Assembly (NCBI GenBank): GCA_012034765.1
Contig: JAAUOU010000051.1
Coordinates: forward strand, 1 to 32,165
Origin: Pleurocapsaceae cyanobacterium CSU_1_1
GTDB lineage: Bacteria; Cyanobacteriota; Cyanobacteriia; Cyanobacteriales; Xenococcaceae
Length of the DNA stretch: 32,165 bases
Reading direction: 5' to 3'
This document shows positions 9,174-32,165 of the stretch, in pieces (within the stretch, counting starts at the first letter, position 1; the number at the start of each line of letters is the position of its first letter). Under the pieces are notes generated by a model. It ran no database searches, was not told where the DNA came from, and saw only the letters and a list, made by a program, of their open reading frames with translations. The position numbers and the translations under genes are program-made.

Positions 9174-10358
9174 ATGGCACAGATAGAAACTAGAACCGAA
9201 CCCATGATTCTTAACATGGGACCTCATCATCCTTCAATGCATGGCGTTTTGCGCCTCATTGTTACCCTTGATGGGGAGGATGTCATCGATTGTGAACCCG
9301 TAATCGGTTATCTTCATCGAGGGATGGAGAAAATCGCCGAAAGTCGTACCAGCGTCATGTATGTTCCCTATGTAAGTCGTTGGGACTATGCAGCAGGGAT
9401 GTTTAATGAAGCCATTACGGTCAATGCGCCCGAAAAGCTTGCAGGTATTGAAGTGCCAAAACGCGCTCAATATATCCGAGTCATCATGCTGGAGTTAAAC
9501 CGCATTGCCAACCATTTATTGTGGCTTGGCCCATTTATGGCAGACGTGGGCGCACAAACTCCCTTTTTCTACATTTTCCGCGAACGAGAATTAATTTATG
9601 ATCTTTGGGAAGCCGCCACAGGACAACGATTAATTAACAATAATTATTTCCGTATTGGTGGCGTATCAGTCGATTTACCCTATGGCTGGATTGACAAGTG
9701 CGAAGATTTTTGTGATTATTTCGATCCTAAAGTTGATGAATATGAAAAATTGATTACCAACAATCCTATTTTCCGTCGGCGAGTGGAAGGAGTTGGCACA
9801 ATTTCTCGCGAGCAAGCAATCAACTGGGGCTTATCTGGCCCTATGCTACGAGCTTCAGGAGTCAAATGGGATTTACGTAAGGTAGACCACTACGAATGCT
9901 ATGACGATTTTGACTGGGATGTCCAGTGGGAGACTGCGGGAGATTGTTTTGCTCGTTACCTAGTACGGGTTCGCGAAATGCGTGAAGCAATCAAAATTAT
10001 TCGTCAGGCATTAAAAGGCATTCCAGGTGGCGCTTATGAAAACCTGGAAGCACAAAGAATGGCAGAAGGGCGTAAATCAAAGTGGAATGACTTTGAATAT
10101 CAGTATATCGCCAAAAAAGTTGCACCCACCTTCAAAATCCCCGCAGGCGAACACTATGTCCGCTTAGAAAGTGGTAAAGGTGAATTAGGGATCTTTATCG
10201 TCGGTAACGATAACGTCTTCCCTTGGCGTTGGAAAATTCGCGCCCCTGACTTCAACAATCTTCAGATTCTACCTGAACTACTAAAGGGCGTTAAGTTGGC
10301 AGATATAATGCCCATTCTTGGCAGTATAGACATAATTATGGGATCAGTAGATCGCTAG
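9174..10358 (+). CDS. ndhH: NAD(P)H-quinone oxidoreductase subunit H (NDH-1 49-kDa type)
   Basis: 394 residues, standard for cyanobacterial and plastid NdhH. Hallmarks include [41 protein letters not shown] and the C-terminal [13 protein letters not shown]. NdhH sits in the peripheral arm of the NDH-1 complex near the quinone site and serves respiratory and cyclic electron flow at the thylakoid or plasma membrane. It is a single-gene unit here, followed after 28 bp by a strong intrinsic terminator. No Shine-Dalgarno is visible before the ATG, as is common in cyanobacteria. Confidence 0.98.
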
Positions 10359-10499: not shown

Positions 10500-10700
10500 T
10501 GACATCCTCCCGACGCTAACTCTCCGAGTATAGCGCGGGCGTTGCCCTAATCTCTGCTAGGCATTGCTATCCTGCGCCACTTATCTAGGCAGAATGCCCC
10601 CGACAGCCCGACTTGATAGCCAATTTCTTTCCCCCAGAGTCCCTGGGTACTATGTTTTTCGACACCTCGGTTACATATTTCTTGTGCCGAGGCGATATCT
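10500..10700 (-). ncRNA. Predicted omega/reRNA region at the tnpB 3' end
   Basis: In TnpB systems the guide scaffold RNA spans the 3' end of tnpB and the right-end hairpin, with the guide taken from flanking DNA. Here the hairpin at 10508-10539 lies directly after the tnpB stop in the expected place. The RNA itself is inferred by position; no guide boundary can be read with certainty. Confidence 0.35.
10508..10539 (-). repeat. Right-end subterminal hairpin of the tnpB element
   Basis: CCCGACGCTA and TAGCGCGGG pair across a loop with one bulged base. It lies 8 bp beyond the tnpB stop and closely matches the left-end hairpin at 11931-11963. Confidence 0.8.
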
Positions 10701-11842
10701 CTATCTACCTTCTCATGTACTCCATAACCGCATTCATGGCAGACATGGTATCTATCAGATAGTTCTTTTCTGACTTCACTACGACAATTAGGGCAGGTTT
10801 GGGATGTTCCTCTATGGTCAACTTCATCTACAAATACTCCTCTACGTTTCCCTACATATTTGAGTATTTGTCGGAACTGACCAAAAGCAGCGTCGAGAGT
10901 ATGCTTGCCTAAAAAACCTTTAGCCATAATTCTAAAGTCACAATCTTCAACAAAGATTGTGTCTGCCATGTCACAAAGTTTATGGACAAGTTTAAATTGA
11001 TAGTCTTTGCGCTGCCAAGCGATATGATTGTGCATCGCTTCTACTTTCTTTCTTGCTTTTTCGTAGTTAGCAGAACGTTTCTGTTTCTTAGACAGACGCT
11101 TTTGCAGCACTTTCAGCCTACGATAGCTCTGTTTGAAAAACTTACTTGGTCGCTCTACATAGTTGTCTGAGGTACAAAGATAAGAAAGTAACCCAACATC
11201 GACCCCGATACAATGCCCGTGTGGTGTTGGTTCTGGTATTTCAATATCCGATTGAATTGCCACAACAGCAAACCAGCCTTTAGCTTTTTTGAGAACTCTT
11301 ACTTGTTTGACCACAAAACCCTCTGGTATTGGTCTATGTAAGTTGATTGGTATTAGTCCTAGTTTTGGCAATTTTATTTGCCATCCGCGAACTGGAGTTC
11401 GCCGACAGCTTCGCTGGCGAAACGCTCCAGCGTTTATAGGATTAGTTTTGAACTGAGGAAATAACATTGATTTCATCTGTCCAAACTTCTTGAATCTAGG
11501 GAAACCATAACCACGTTTTTGAAAAAAATCCCAGGCATCATGCAGCCTTCTAACATTGGTTTGAAGAACTTGTGATGGTAATTGTTTGAGTCGTGGGAAT
11601 TCTTTTTTAGCTTTTGGTAAGTTATTCTGCTGTTGATGGTATCCAGGGAACGGATAGTCAGCACTCATAATGTATTCAGATTCCAAACTACACCTATCTA
11701 CTTGGCATTTGCGAGATGCTATCCAATCTTTTAGCTCTCTAAGTGCGTAGTTATAAGATGCTCTGCAAACATCAAGCCACTCAAGAAGTGACTCTTGCTG
11801 TTTTGCATCTGGATAAATTTGATAGGCGTAATTAAGGATCAT
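10547..11842 (-). CDS. tnpB: TnpB, RNA-guided endonuclease of an IS200/IS605-type element
   Basis: 431 residues starting MILNYAYQIYPDAKQQ, a typical helix-turn-helix-like lead. The split RuvC nuclease is intact: first Asp in CIGVDVGLLSYL, Glu in IFVEDCDF, and last Asp in VDRDIASAQE. The zinc ribbon CPNC...CHECG lies between the last two. TnpB cuts DNA under guidance of an RNA from the element's right end and favours element retention. Near residues 144-160 there is an Arg-rich stretch (FRQRSCRRTPVRG) that breaks the usual run from FKTNPI to IKLPKLG. It is encoded by a 39-bp palindromic repeat (11392-11430) that keeps the frame. Activity is plausible if this loop is tolerated. Confidence 0.93.
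   Translation of the reverse strand: MILNYAYQIYPDAKQQESLLEWLDVCRASYNYALRELKDWIASRKCQVDRCSLESEYIMSADYPFPGYHQQQNNLPKAKKEFPRLKQLPSQVLQTNVRRLHDAWDFFQKRGYGFPRFKKFGQMKSMLFPQFKTNPINAGAFRQRSCRRTPVRGWQIKLPKLGLIPINLHRPIPEGFVVKQVRVLKKAKGWFAVVAIQSDIEIPEPTPHGHCIGVDVGLLSYLCTSDNYVERPSKFFKQSYRRLKVLQKRLSKKQKRSANYEKARKKVEAMHNHIAWQRKDYQFKLVHKLCDMADTIFVEDCDFRIMAKGFLGKHTLDAAFGQFRQILKYVGKRRGVFVDEVDHRGTSQTCPNCRSEVRKELSDRYHVCHECGYGVHEKVDRDIASAQEICNRGVEKHSTQGLWGKEIGYQVGLSGAFCLDKWRRIAMPSRD
11392..11430 (-). repeat. 39-bp palindromic repeat inserted in frame in tnpB
   Basis: CTGGAGTTCGCC at the left and GGCGAAACGCTCCAG at the right form an interrupted palindrome around GACAGCTTCGCT. The length is 13 codons, the frame stays open, and the encoded stretch is absent from the usual TnpB pattern as I know it. 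It resembles the intergenic palindromic elements elsewhere in this window. Confidence 0.6.
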
Positions 11843-13040: not shown

Positions 13041-13178
13041 GACAGTTACGTTGCGGGGGCGACGCGAAGCTAGTACTTTAGTGTTCCCCCCGTTGTCCTA
13101 AAGGACGACGCGAAGCTAGTGCGACACGAAGTTAGTCCTTTAGGGCTTTAGCATACACCTTCGGATAAGTAAACTGTC
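13041..13178. repeat. Composite palindromic repeat cluster between ilvE and the M61 peptidase gene
   Basis: Outer arms GACAGTT (13041-13047) and AACTGTC (13172-13178) enclose two GACGCGAAGCTAGT-type copies, a TTGTCCTAAAGGACG copy and a GTTAGTCCTTTAGGG copy. The core GCGACGCGAAGCTA at 13059-13072 is identical to the last 14 bases of the window. TTGCTCA-type heptamers flank both sides (about 13018-13038 and 13183-13197), and the right one overlaps the stop codon of the peptidase gene. Confidence 0.75.
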
Positions 13179-18483: not shown

Positions 18484-19368
18484 TCAAGCAATACCCAACT
18501 TATTTTGAGCATTGACTAGTCTATCGCGAAAACGATAAGCAGCATTAACAATTTCGCCTCTTTGGGTAGCATTTAGACCACTATAGGGTTGGGCTGCAAC
18601 CTGACCTTGAGTAAAATAAGGAGCAACAGTTGCGATCGCTGCTTCATAGGCTGTCTTAGCTTCGGTAAAAACAGCAGGATCAACACTTTCTAGCGCCGCT
18701 GCAAAAGGCTCAAACTGGCTATAGATACCTTTCCAATTTTCCTGAAAAATCAACAGACTTTGATCTGACCAAGTTTCTTCTTCACTAGAAATTTTCTTAG
18801 CAGGAATTTCTGTTGCTAAAGCGATCATGCCTTCAAAATGAGAAGGAGAATCAAAGTTTTCTCTGGCTTTTAAATCAGTCATTAAAGTTTTGATACTGGC
18901 AACTAACCCTTGAGCATAGGGTAATGCGGTTTTTAAATCACCATCACGATAAATTAAAGCTTCAATACGGTGAAACCCTTTAAAAGCTTTGTCTAATTCT
19001 CCATGATCAAAAGCATAAGGTCGAGCATCAATATCGCGATCGCTTGCTTCAAAATTGAGTGCTAATACCTCGATCTGCTCATAGGGAGGACGCGATTCTA
19101 CATAAGTTGTTTTAGCTGCCTCTAAGTCTCCACTAGCGATCGCTGCTTCTAATGCTTCTACTAACGGTAGTTGTTTGGTAGCTTGGTCTTGGAAATAGGT
19201 TAATCCTGCATCTACTTGAGCAGCATATTTATCTGCCTGTGCTAACAATCTTGGTTGATTAGTCTTTTGAGCTTGGGCAGAATGTTTTAGCTGAGATACG
19301 GTTACCGCTCCTAAACTTACTATACCTACTCCTTTTAAAAGTCTGCGCCGATTTAACTTGATATTCAT
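18484..19368 (-). CDS. Tat-exported EfeM/EfeO-like imelysin (M75) family protein
   Basis: 294 residues. The N-terminus has a twin-arginine signal (NRRRLLKG, then a hydrophobic stretch and AQA). The mature part is the helical EfeO/imelysin domain: SRPPYEQIEVLA, DARPYAFDHGELDKAF, and the HxxE motif in GFHRIEALIYRDGD. It lacks the N-terminal cupredoxin domain of E. coli EfeO and so is closer to EfeM-type proteins. EfeU and EfeB are not adjacent. The family is tied to periplasmic iron handling. Its place between an exported phosphatase and an iron-type porin in one probable operon (gaps 43 and 49 bp) supports an iron role. Confidence 0.87.
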   Translation of the reverse strand: MNIKLNRRRLLKGVGIVSLGAVTVSQLKHSAQAQKTNQPRLLAQADKYAAQVDAGLTYFQDQATKQLPLVEALEAAIASGDLEAAKTTYVESRPPYEQIEVLALNFEASDRDIDARPYAFDHGELDKAFKGFHRIEALIYRDGDLKTALPYAQGLVASIKTLMTDLKARENFDSPSHFEGMIALATEIPAKKISSEEETWSDQSLLIFQENWKGIYSQFEPFAAALESVDPAVFTEAKTAYEAAIATVAPYFTQGQVAAQPYSGLNATQRGEIVNAAYRFRDRLVNAQNKLGIA

Positions 19369-20233: not shown

Positions 20234-21559
20234 CTAAAAAACGAATTTTAGCTGGATACTCCAAGACTCAGGTTGACTACGCACAATTTCTATTTGCTGA
20301 ATAAATTCACGAAAATAAAACCGCCTTTCTGTTTCAGATAAGTCTAGCCAGAATTGTGGTAGAGAAACAGCTTGAGCGATCGCTTTTAAATTACCTGGAG
20401 GTAGTTGGGCTAGATTGATTTCTAGCTGGGCAATTTCGCTACGAAGTTTGTAGGTACGCAAGGCAACAGTTTCTTGGTCTAAGATACCTTGCTCTTCTAA
20501 GTGGGGTAATTGCTGGAGTATGGCTTGTTTCTCGAAAATCTTTTGTTGATGAGAATTCTTCATAGCAGACTCAGGAGAAAGTTTTAACTGAGCAACTGCC
20601 AAGGGTAGTTCTAGGCAAATTTTGTTAATGGTTTGAGCCAAAACTTGTTCATAGGCGATCGCTTTACACTTGATTCTTTGGGGACATTTAGGGCAACGCA
20701 GATATAAGTATTCAGTTTTTTGGTGATGTTGTGTTACGCGAGCAATATTCATCCCTAACTGACAATACTGACAGACGACTAAACCCGCCAAAGATCGAGG
20801 TGCGCTGGCGGTGCGACTAGGTAGAGAGCGATTACGACGCAGCAGACGATCTATTTGCGCTGCTTCTTCTGGATTAATAATTGCCGTGTGGGTATGGGAA
20901 ATTATTGACTGATCTTGAGATTGTTTTTTATATTGTAAACTGCCTCGATACACAGGATTAGTCAGCCAATTGCGTCCTGTGGTGGGGGAAATTTTTTTCC
21001 CATAACGCTTTTCTAGATAACGAACTGCACCCCGCAAAGAACCAAATAAAATAAACCTTTCAAAAAAATCTTTAACTACTGGAGCTGTACTTTTATCCAC
21101 CAGATAACGATCTTGTCCGCGACGATATCCATAGGGTGCTTTCCCAGGAGGAGGCAGCATTTTTAAACGATTACGAGCATGACCTTGTTCGAGGCGCTGA
21201 CGCTGCTTATTGGTCTGTATTTCTTGCAGTAAATTACTTAATTTAAGCTTTAATTGTTCGCGCTCAAACTGACTCCATTGGGGCGAACTATAGTCTTGTT
21301 CTGTCGCAATAATCTCCACCCCCAAAGATTCTAATTGATTAAGGCGATCGCAAATTATCTCAAGATTGTCTCCCAATTCCTCAAGTCGACGAACTAGCAA
21401 ATACTTAGGTGCTGCTAATGTACAGTCTGCAATTAACTGTTGCAGTTGTTGATGTTCTCCCCTGTCTTGATAAATGCGATCGACTTCTAAACCCCAGATG
21501 TTTTGATTGGGAGCAGTTTCTAATAAAGGATCGCTATATAAATAAGCAATAATTTTCAT
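20234..21559 (-). CDS. Serine-recombinase-like protein with degenerate catalytic domain
   Basis: 441 residues with the layout of a large serine recombinase: resolvase-like N-terminal domain (1-95), long helix (about 105-130), recombinase domain (about 135-240, APYGYRRG, GSLRGAVRYLE, NWLTNPVYRG), zinc ribbon (about 265-300, CQYC...CPKC), and a coiled segment. The active site is altered. The usual YARVS reads AYLYSDP, the DRxG arginine segment reads GEHQQL, and the LDRLGR motif reads LEELGDN. The essential arginines are therefore not where they should be. The DNA-binding half looks intact, so it may bind DNA without recombining it. HIP1 octamers in the gene suggest long residence rather than recent arrival. 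Confidence 0.85.
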   Translation of the reverse strand: MKIIAYLYSDPLLETAPNQNIWGLEVDRIYQDRGEHQQLQQLIADCTLAAPKYLLVRRLEELGDNLEIICDRLNQLESLGVEIIATEQDYSSPQWSQFEREQLKLKLSNLLQEIQTNKQRQRLEQGHARNRLKMLPPPGKAPYGYRRGQDRYLVDKSTAPVVKDFFERFILFGSLRGAVRYLEKRYGKKISPTTGRNWLTNPVYRGSLQYKKQSQDQSIISHTHTAIINPEEAAQIDRLLRRNRSLPSRTASAPRSLAGLVVCQYCQLGMNIARVTQHHQKTEYLYLRCPKCPQRIKCKAIAYEQVLAQTINKICLELPLAVAQLKLSPESAMKNSHQQKIFEKQAILQQLPHLEEQGILDQETVALRTYKLRSEIAQLEINLAQLPPGNLKAIAQAVSLPQFWLDLSETERRFYFREFIQQIEIVRSQPESWSIQLKFVF

Positions 21560-22607: not shown

Positions 22608-22696
22608 GGTCAGGTTCCCTGCCGTCCTAAAGGATATATCCGCAGGTGTATCCTTTAGGACACCTTCGGATATAAAACGACAGGGCTTGCCTGACC
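22608..22696. repeat. Nested palindromic dispersed repeat
   Basis: Outer arms GGTCAGG (22608-22614) and CCTGACC (22690-22696) enclose a second pair, CCCTG and CAGGG. Inside is a perfect 13-bp pair, GTCCTAAAGGATA (22624-22636) and TATCCTTTAGGAC (22649-22661). The 15-mer GTATCCTTTAGGACA also occurs inside the IS5-type transposase gene at 32027-32041. The element lies just after the membrane-protein stop and ends about 60 bp before the next start. Confidence 0.8.
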
Positions 22697-30850: not shown

Positions 30851-31347
30851 GTGCGCCCCTAAAGGTCGAATCTATAATCAAATGTTAGATATTCCCCGAG
30901 GCGGAATAAATAAAAAAGGTAGCTGAAGCCGAAGTTTGTCAACTGCTTGACCGTAGGTTTTTGAGGTACGAGAAACAGTTTACTAACGTAGGTGGAAGCG
31001 TATAATCTCGTGACAACGCCTCGAAGGTATATCGACGGTAGCTACATATGTAAGATAAGCACTAAGTTACTGCTAATCTTCCAGAGTGTGCGTTATTAAA
31101 CATCACTGATTCTCACGGAATACTTAACTTTTCCTATCTGGATAACTACTTACATACCCTAAAAGTGTTGAATAAAGTATTAAACACTTTCCAGATACAC
31201 CCTTTCTGAGTAGGAAAGGGTACGCAGTTATAAACCAATTCATCTAGATGTCTCTAGCTACATTTCACTTAGACTATCTTTGAAACTTAGGATAAAACAG
31301 TACATGATTACTAGTTATGTGAGTGCAGGCAAAAAAAAATCAGCCCT
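30851..31347 (+). mobile_element. Probable 5' portion of a group II intron (domain I), cut by an IS5-family element
   Basis: It begins with GTGCGCCC, the usual bacterial group II intron 5' end. Stretches typical of domain I follow: GGTAGCTGAAGCC, then CTAACGTAGGTGG and CGTGACAACGCC. Strong stems follow at 31162-31190 (13 bp arms, one mismatch) and 31199-31221 (8-bp stem, 7-nt loop). No protein frame is present, as expected for the first 500 bases of such introns. The reverse transcriptase ORF and domains V-VI are not in the window; the IS5-type element begins near 31348. Assignment rests on motif recall and structure. Confidence 0.55.
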
Positions 31348-31369
31348 GAGAGGACATCTGAAAAGTTAT

Positions 31370-32165
31370 TTATGTTGCCAAACGCCTAAGCATAATCCGA
31401 ATCATTGCAACCTGAATCATGGCTTCAGAAGTTTGAGGAAGAACTTCGTAGTCTTTGCTTAATCTTCGACACCAGTTAAACCAGCCAAAAGTTCTTTCGA
31501 CAACCCAACGACGAGGTAAAACCTCGAATCCTTGAGCATCATCTGAACGTAATACTGTTTCAATTATCCAACGATAGGTATCCATTACCCAACGCATAAA
31601 ATCAATACCTCTGTATCCGCCATCAACCCAGATGGTGACTAAACGAAAGAACTCTGATTTGGACTGATGGACTCTCTCAAATACTAATTTTGCCCCCTCT
31701 CTCTCCGGTAAAGATGCCGCAGTCACTACCACTACCATCATTAACCCTAAAGTATCAACCAATAAATGGCGTTTCCTTCCTTTGGTCTTTTTGCCTCCGT
31801 CATAACCTACTTCTGGATGAATCATAGTTGCTGTCTCTACTGATTGACTGTCAAGAATTGCTGCGCTAGGACTGGGATGACGATCTTCTATTGTTCTGAC
31901 CCATTGCCTTAATTGTTCGTGAATGCGTTGCCAGTCTCCATCTATGCGCCATTGTCGAAAATAATGATAGACCGTTTTCCATTTCGGAAAATCATGAGGC
32001 AGTAGATACCACGCATATGCGGAGCGGTATCCTTTAGGACATCCTGCCACCAAAATGTAGAAAATGCCGTTGATAATCTCTCTCATATCTACAGTTCGGG
32101 GACGACCTCCTGGTTTGGCTTCTGGAATTAAAGTTTTGATGATTTCCCATTGCGACGCGAAGCTA
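31370..32165 (-). CDS. IS5-family DDE transposase, N-terminus beyond the window
   Basis: The frame stays open from the stop at 31370 to the window edge. The internal Met at 32086 is not the true start: WEIIKTLIPEAKPGGRPRTVD, the standard IS5-type lead, precedes it in frame. Catalytic residues are present: Asp in AILDSQSVE, Asp in IWVDGGYRG and Glu in RRWVVERTFGWFNW. Two interruptions keep the frame. The PKGYRSAYA segment between GC and WYLLPHDFP comes from a 27-bp repeat (32012-32038). SFAS before QWEII comes from a repeat core at the window edge (32152-32165). Whether the protein is active with these insertions cannot be told. Confidence 0.9.
   Translation of the reverse strand, partial: SFASQWEIIKTLIPEAKPGGRPRTVDMREIINGIFYILVAGCPKGYRSAYAWYLLPHDFPKWKTVYHYFRQWRIDGDWQRIHEQLRQWVRTIEDRHPSPSAAILDSQSVETATMIHPEVGYDGGKKTKGRKRHLLVDTLGLMMVVVVTAASLPEREGAKLVFERVHQSKSEFFRLVTIWVDGGYRGIDFMRWVMDTYRWIIETVLRSDDAQGFEVLPRRWVVERTFGWFNWCRRLSKDYEVLPQTSEAMIQVAMIRIMLRRLAT
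32012..32038 (-). repeat. 27-bp small dispersed repeat inserted in frame in the transposase gene
   Basis: The plus strand reads CGCATATGCGGAGCGGTATC then CTTTAGG. With flanking bases, GTATCCTTTAGGACA (32027-32041) is identical to 22648-22662, and GCGGAGC...TCCTTTAGG resembles 16722-16740. It encodes nine residues absent from the usual IS5 pattern GC-x-W-R-x-LPHDF. Confidence 0.7.
32152..32165 (-). repeat. GCGACGCGAAGCTA repeat core at the window edge, within the transposase frame
   Basis: Identical over 14 bases to 13059-13072 in the intergenic repeat cluster. It lies just before the conserved QWEII of the transposase, in frame as far as can be seen. The copy is cut off by the window end. 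Confidence 0.65.

Follow-up and report, generated by a model that had tools for sequence, protein, structure and literature searches.

What are the short extra segments in the transposase gene at the end of this contig, and how did they come to lie in protein-coding sequence? Here we analyse a window of 32,165 nucleotides, the entire contig C102 of the Pleurocapsaceae cyanobacterium CSU_1_1 genome (G000; 4.6 Mb in 196 contigs), for which a preliminary description had proposed that two small dispersed repeats are inserted in frame in one IS5-type transposase. With a probability of roughly 85%, we read these inserts as copies of two related 24-bp families of small dispersed repeats that would be mobile, now or recently, in one cyanobacterial family. 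The argument turns on the following features at the end of the window:

31350 to 32165, minus strand: IS5-family (NF033580) insertion sequence (IS), from its right end to the contig end, with matches to Pfam DDE_Tnp_1 and DUF4096 and to NCBIfam transpos_IS5_3
31347 to 31349: trinucleotide TGA (TCA on the IS strand) adjoining the terminal repeat
31350 to 31366: terminal repeat GAGGACATCTGAAAAGT of the IS, at its right end
31370 to 32164, minus strand: transposase reading frame, 264 codons, open up to the contig end
32016 to 32039, minus strand: repeat 1, 24 bp, TCCTAAAGGATACCGCTCCGCATA, within the open frame and adding 8 residues; empty site on contig C76, 8-residue gap in relatives
32153 to 32165, minus strand: repeat 2, the 3' 13 of the 24 bp of CCCTAAAGGACTAGCTTCGCGTCG; the remainder is on contig C19

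The carrier belongs to the IS5 family, NF033580 group: its transposase scores 209.8 bits against the NF033580 model (cut-off 110), the left end GAGGATGTCTGAAAAGT on C19 matches the terminal repeat in the window, and it shares with the group both matching terminal repeats (C102, C19) and, by eye, TNA-like trinucleotides adjoining the ends. Unlike the group, it holds two foreign 24-bp repeats, one of which closes its reading frame. At least four right ends of this IS are found in the genome (C102, C121, C185, C76); the C76 copy is without repeat 1, and C121 and C185 start downstream of the repeat-1 site and are therefore uninformative about it. The C76 copy (L105, at the contig end, to base 39172) is internally deleted, with both sides retained and most of the gene gone; C76 stops about 127 nt into the IS, and the 127 nt shared by the starts of C121 and C185 suggest that this deleted form occurs more than once, in a MITE-like manner. 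On C19 (L114, positions 1-420), the IS left end splits an open frame that resembles a tyrosine recombinase by eye, and the right flank of C185 is an open frame that may be its other half, both with the trinucleotide TTA. Elsewhere in the window, the frames at 10547-11842 and 20234-21559 resemble, again by eye, a TnpB protein and a large serine recombinase.

Relatives of the window transposase read GC-AW where it reads GC-PKGYRSAY-AW, a placement that may shift by one residue. The clean gap expected against nearest relatives appeared as an exact 8-residue (24-nt) gap in 35 of 36 site-spanning named loci (from a set of 62) and in 23 of the 24 spanning loci from a family search (29 examined), two sets that overlap in that L026 is L235 and L009 is L215. 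The first of these shared loci is from Pleurocapsa sp. MO_192.B19, with all 1961 bases found exactly in G004 (same genus); the second is from Xenococcaceae cyanobacterium MO_167.B52, with all 1896 bases in G021 (same family). Both exceptions, one named and one from the family search, are poor alignments in stop-containing stretches and neither has the insert, so that relatives with the same residues at this site, which would speak against insertion, did not occur among the spanning loci. At the end of C76, another copy of this IS within the CSU_1_1 genome agrees with the window over the 64 bases to the left of the site and then reads GGCAGGATGTGCGTGGTAT, with the insert absent and the internal deletion directly past the empty site. 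On sequence grounds, we consider the C76 empty site the decisive evidence for insertion. The preliminary description had placed a 27-bp insert, PKGYRSAYA, at the GC-W junction; the extra residues are there, and the size has to be revised, since the A before W is ancestral and the insert is 24 bp or 8 residues, as the C76 site also has it. The junctions leave a one-base T ambiguity, and any target duplication is no longer than that.

The second repeat was said to lie directly before QWEII. The window stops at the contig end inside it, and the first 23 bases of C19 equal the last 23 of the window; C19 reads GATGAG, then CCCTAAAGGACTAGCTTCGCGTCG, then CAATGG, a 24-bp insert, and runs on through the IS left end, and a relative reads GATGAACAATGG at the same place. 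The claimed position is thereby borne out, with C19 completing the 24 bp. Repeat 2 preserves the phase yet reads DE-P-stop-RTSFAS-QWEII, introducing a TAA stop, so 'in frame' holds for its length only: two inserts do lie within one IS gene, and the idea of a readable second insert, and hence of two protein-coding ones, has to be given up. The left flank of C19 has the trinucleotide TTA and the right flank of C102 has TCA, and the two contigs may come from different IS copies, so that the two complete units need not lie on one copy; C102 itself holds the whole of unit 1 and, of unit 2, 13 bases.

Both sequences are far more numerous in the CSU_1_1 genome than chance would allow, which disposes of the possibility that the cores are no more frequent than expected. 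Allowing up to 3 mismatches, repeat 1 is present at 72 places, 33 of them exact; repeat 2 is at 48 places with up to 2 mismatches and the 14-mer core at 21 places, and reversed-pattern controls gave 0 for each. In the repeat 1 set, one of the 72 places (on C180) was left out and the remainder make 61 distinct contexts, or 60 under a differing context key; the places on C5, C84, C162 and C168 merge into one context, as do those on C61, C127 and C182. The two units have 24 bases each and share their first ten save base 1 (YCCTAAAGGA, a possible small hairpin), and their 14-nt 3' parts differ.

All matches of both repeats in a sample of 60 genomes fall within one family. Repeat 1, with up to 1 mismatch, is in 23 of the 60: 12 of 13 in the genus (the CSU_1_1 genome included), 11 of 14 elsewhere in the family and 0 of 33 outside. 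In a phylum-wide set it is in 2 of 386 genomes, both in the genus and again counting CSU_1_1, with 0 copies at this threshold in the 384 sampled genomes outside the genus. Repeat 2, with up to 2 mismatches, is in 20 of the 60 genomes (13/13, 7/14 and 0/33, respectively). A single-contig genome of the same genus, G006, has no repeat 1 copy (up to 1 mismatch) and one repeat 2 copy (up to 2); it nonetheless has relatives of the IS and AddA-like, GlcE-like and BchH-type genes, and so offers a natural near-empty reference genome.

Within the window, the transposase inserts had been described as sharing exact 14-15-mers with sites at 13.06 kb and 22.65 kb, and the coordinates agree: an exact 15-mer joins 32027-32041 to 22648-22662 and an exact 14-mer joins 32152-32165 to 13059-13072, where 200 mono-shuffles of 31990-32165 shared a mean of 0.18 13-mers. 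Two further matches have no connection with the repeats, a 14-mer (32127-32140 with 18881-18894) and a 13-mer (32052-32064 with 9565-9577); a single shared 14-mer is therefore weak proof, and it is the genome-wide counts that carry the case. The sites concerned are:

22637 to 22660, minus strand: diverged repeat 1 copy TCCTAAAGGATACACCTGCGGATA, 4 mismatches, overlapping a 13-bp inverted repeat with arms at 22624-22636 and 22649-22661
13059 to 13144, plus strand: composite with the repeat-2 core (13059-13072 exact; 13105-13118 with one mismatch)
13097 to 13144: inverted repeat CCTAAAGGAC/GTCCTTTAGG inside the composite

Filled and empty sites recur in genes of other kinds. An AddA-like gene, with matches in 22 of the 27 family genomes, has the insert in CSU_1_1 and in G005, its nearest relative by this protein, and an exact 8-residue gap in 19 other genomes; G021 has an unrelated longer stretch at the site. 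Two independent empty sites, that of the IS and that of the AddA-like gene, thus each give a net insertion of 24 bp, with a duplication that never exceeds one base. In a GlcE-like gene, G002 has the HIP1-like sequence GACGATCGCC, and the longer insert that CSU_1_1 has at this site contains repeat 1, an arrangement that looks nested. The G005 copy of this gene (L244) has an unrelated 24-bp insert, ATCCCGAAGAGTTCTCGATGGGAA, exactly between GCG and ATCGC of the HIP1 site. In a BchH-type gene, a variable stretch before IRDLLxQNTDEMTNLLRG carries repeat 1 in CSU_1_1, a repeat-1-like piece in reversed orientation in G003, a repeat-1-like peptide in G009 and repeat 2 in G005; across the family this stretch (L297-L319) is hypervariable and apparently holds several small repeats, one of them like GGGGCGAAAGGCTTTCGCCC. 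Clean unit insertion, dispersal and hitch-hiking of the repeats can be regarded as shown at the level of sequence comparison.

How often do the copies lie in genes? We counted as open-frame any repeat 1 copy (up to 3 mismatches, own genome) whose frame stays open for 40 or more codons to either side, and found 18; two more rows are closed, and one of these is antisense to an open row. Mobile genes hold five of the 18, namely the window IS5 transposase, three genes for TnpB and one IS4-like gene; 12 are in other genes and the remaining one, L200, is unassigned. The non-mobile hosts, named by Pfam and NCBIfam, are a chelatase H, two polyketide synthases, an AddA/UvrD-like protein (with a PD-(D/E)XK domain, and AddA models below cut-off), a GlcE-like oxidase (model score below cut-off), a histidine kinase, a TonB receptor with two copies, a DUF3854 protein, a Ycf66 protein, a glycosyltransferase and L182, which has no Pfam match. 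The chelatase, L120, scores 1276.7 bits against BchH (TIGR02025; cut-off 829), with two further chelatase-H models of that name below their cut-offs; by NCBIfam it would be a BchH-type chelatase and not CobN, and the role in chlorophyll synthesis could belong to another homologue, further ones being present in the genome at 35-50% identity. In this protein the insert falls where solved ChlH has no aligned counterpart (query 200-261).

The CSU_1_1 genome has an excess of open-frame copies. Repeat 1 rows are open in 18 of 20 cases against 60% expected from a random-insertion control (p 0.004), and repeat 2 rows in 9 of 12 against 34% (p 0.005; 48 contexts), or 7 copies open and 3 closed with antisense rows set aside, rows that are non-independent through antisense frames, two copies in one gene and similar TnpB genes. 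When three recognised closed cases are added (L187, and L127 and L185, which fall below the threshold), the count is 18 open to 3 closed and differs weakly from two thirds (p 0.046), and 29 copies from relatives, with 8 open and 3 closed at 35 or more open codons on both sides, give no clear excess. Contexts with a qualifying row are fewer than under random placement in the same stretches (19 of 60 against 60%), and many contexts without one look intergenic. The closed-frame repeat 1 cases that can be named by eye are mobile genes (the transposase L187, the IS1-like L185 and the integrase L127); in relatives, the closed-frame L147, L155 and L158 resemble transposase genes, and the closed repeat 2 rows are L333, L338 and L343. 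We infer that, 24 being a multiple of three, open-frame insertions would survive selection as 8-residue additions, and that closed-frame ones would persist mainly in dispensable genes.

As to how the units move, we propose a copy-and-insert route that may pass through a single-stranded, structured intermediate, either RNA or ssDNA, with the enzymes supplied in trans. A two-hairpin structure of repeat 1 is suggested by an alignment of 39 of its 42 distinct units, in which the pairs 1-10, 2-9 and 3-8 and 11-24, 12-23, 15-21 and 16-20 are satisfied in 89.4% of cells, the copies being related to one another. Pair 2-9 is C-G in 27 units and G-C in 5, and pair 15-21 is G-C in 34 and C-G in 4. Both-side changes fill 11 cells, a number reached by 0 of 500 shuffles and at most 3 in slid structures, and the covariation score is 0.146 against 0.053. 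The pairs with a both-side change number 3 (reached by 140 of 500 shuffles) and the further pair types 6 (by 103 of 500), neither measure standing out from shuffles, and the repeat 1 consensus folded singly does no better than shuffles (z 0.21).

Such a structure recalls REP/REPIN sequences and their RAYT enzymes, REP being expanded in the abstract of PMC3733652 as repetitive extragenic palindrome; both kinds of repeat are short, dispersed and possibly hairpin-forming. On this account the repeats would be hairpin substrates of a Y1 transposase, of the IS200/IS605 or REP-associated type, and would be moved as single strands. The possible small hairpins with some paired changes fit it, as do the lack of a long target duplication and the presence of Y1 transposases in all 27 family genomes. 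However, repeat 1 is without GTAG, and the Y1 counts, in which RAYT-type genes are pooled with other Y1 genes, do not follow copy number over the 27 genomes (rho -0.08, p 0.69): G006 combines 7 Y1 matches with 0 repeat 1 copies, and in G011 18 copies accompany a single weak Y1 match (6e-4). This absence of correlation speaks against Y1 transposases as the driver, which they might still be, and we hold the REP/RAYT-like account as a whole to be unlikely, at perhaps one chance in five.

Somewhat less probable again is that the 24-mers are templated insertions, in which slippage or template switching at short matches would copy an existing repeat and a dedicated element would be absent. The one-base T ambiguity at the junctions would suit this, as would the strong G at position -1 (across 103 distinct repeat 1 copies with up to 4 mismatches in family stretches, G precedes 83 and T follows 70) and the composites and nested copies that occur at clustered repeats, but the same 24-bp boundaries are found at unrelated sites (the IS and the AddA-like gene) and the second family has the same unit length, 24 bp.

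The preliminary description had also suggested that the repeat either targets or rides on transposons, and here its two halves part. An ISAs1-like IS end (by eye) with repeat 1 in frame (NNMAQA-YAERYPLG-KRKSQ) is joined to four different right flanks, and three are seen for the end of a TnpB-like element (by eye) that bears repeat 1; since these carriers recur with the repeat at different flanks, repeat 1 multiplies along with its carrier, and riding holds for two other multicopy carriers. Specific targeting of transposons is very improbable: it would account for two inserts in one IS, for the share of open-frame copies, 5 of 18, that transposase and TnpB genes hold and for the copies seen by eye in the ISAs1-like IS, an IS1-like gene, a transposase and an integrase, but 12 of the 18 are in other genes, and relaxed selection together with IS multiplication would likewise raise the share in mobile genes. 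There may be a mild preference for mobile genes, the 5 of 18 being a figure not scaled to the background share of such genes.

Where do the families belong among known repeats? Elhai et al. 2008 are said to have described small dispersed repeats, SDR1-8, of 21-27 nt in Nostoc punctiforme, and reportedly found the structure of SDR4-6 to be conserved, as judged from compensatory changes. The repeats here share with these a length of 24 nt, dispersal, nesting, copies inside mobile elements, filled and empty sites at two loci and many copies above chance (72 and 48 against 0); they differ in belonging to another host family and in having many open-frame copies in genes. Furthermore, a passage of PMC4390886 places SDR5 between GCG and ATCGC of a HIP1 site, and the 24-bp insert in the G005 GlcE-like gene has that same position. 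In Rickettsia palindromic elements, described in a passage of PMC10969869 as about 150 bp long and inserted in frame in many unrelated protein genes, there is a second likeness, in that repeat 1 too lies in open frames of unrelated genes; against the elements of that passage, the units here have 24 bp instead of about 150 and at most two tiny hairpins in place of one long palindrome, and the host is unrelated. The earlier comparison with both systems was apt, since the repeat is dispersed, its sites are found both filled and empty, and many unrelated genes carry it in open frames. Identity as MITEs was rejected, a terminal inverted repeat not being seen in the unit and the duplication being at most 1 base at two empty sites. 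The best reading is that these are new small dispersed repeat families of the Nostoc kind described by Elhai, a comparison with SDR1-8 made by description and not by sequence. The literature searched yielded no in-frame small dispersed repeats in cyanobacterial proteins, and Elhai 2008 may describe cases.

Small mobile repeats are commonly regarded as intergenic. The units described here, 24 nt long, are tolerated inside conserved protein genes, and their filled and empty sites are clean among close relatives; the 8-codon length is such that the repeats can persist in proteins, as Rickettsia palindromic elements do. A bolder possibility, which we put forward tentatively and think rather doubtful, is that these are the smallest known protein-coding mobile elements, 24-nt units whose length would be held at eight codons by their spread through coding DNA and which would supply conserved enzymes across the family, among them a BchH-type chelatase, an AddA-like nuclease and polyketide synthases, with new 8-residue segments, in both orientations and several frames. 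The finding offers a plain dispersal route, in which a unit enters a mobile element and then multiplies with it, and it makes testable both how short sequences without a gene of their own move and at what rate selfish DNA gives bacterial enzymes new peptide segments.
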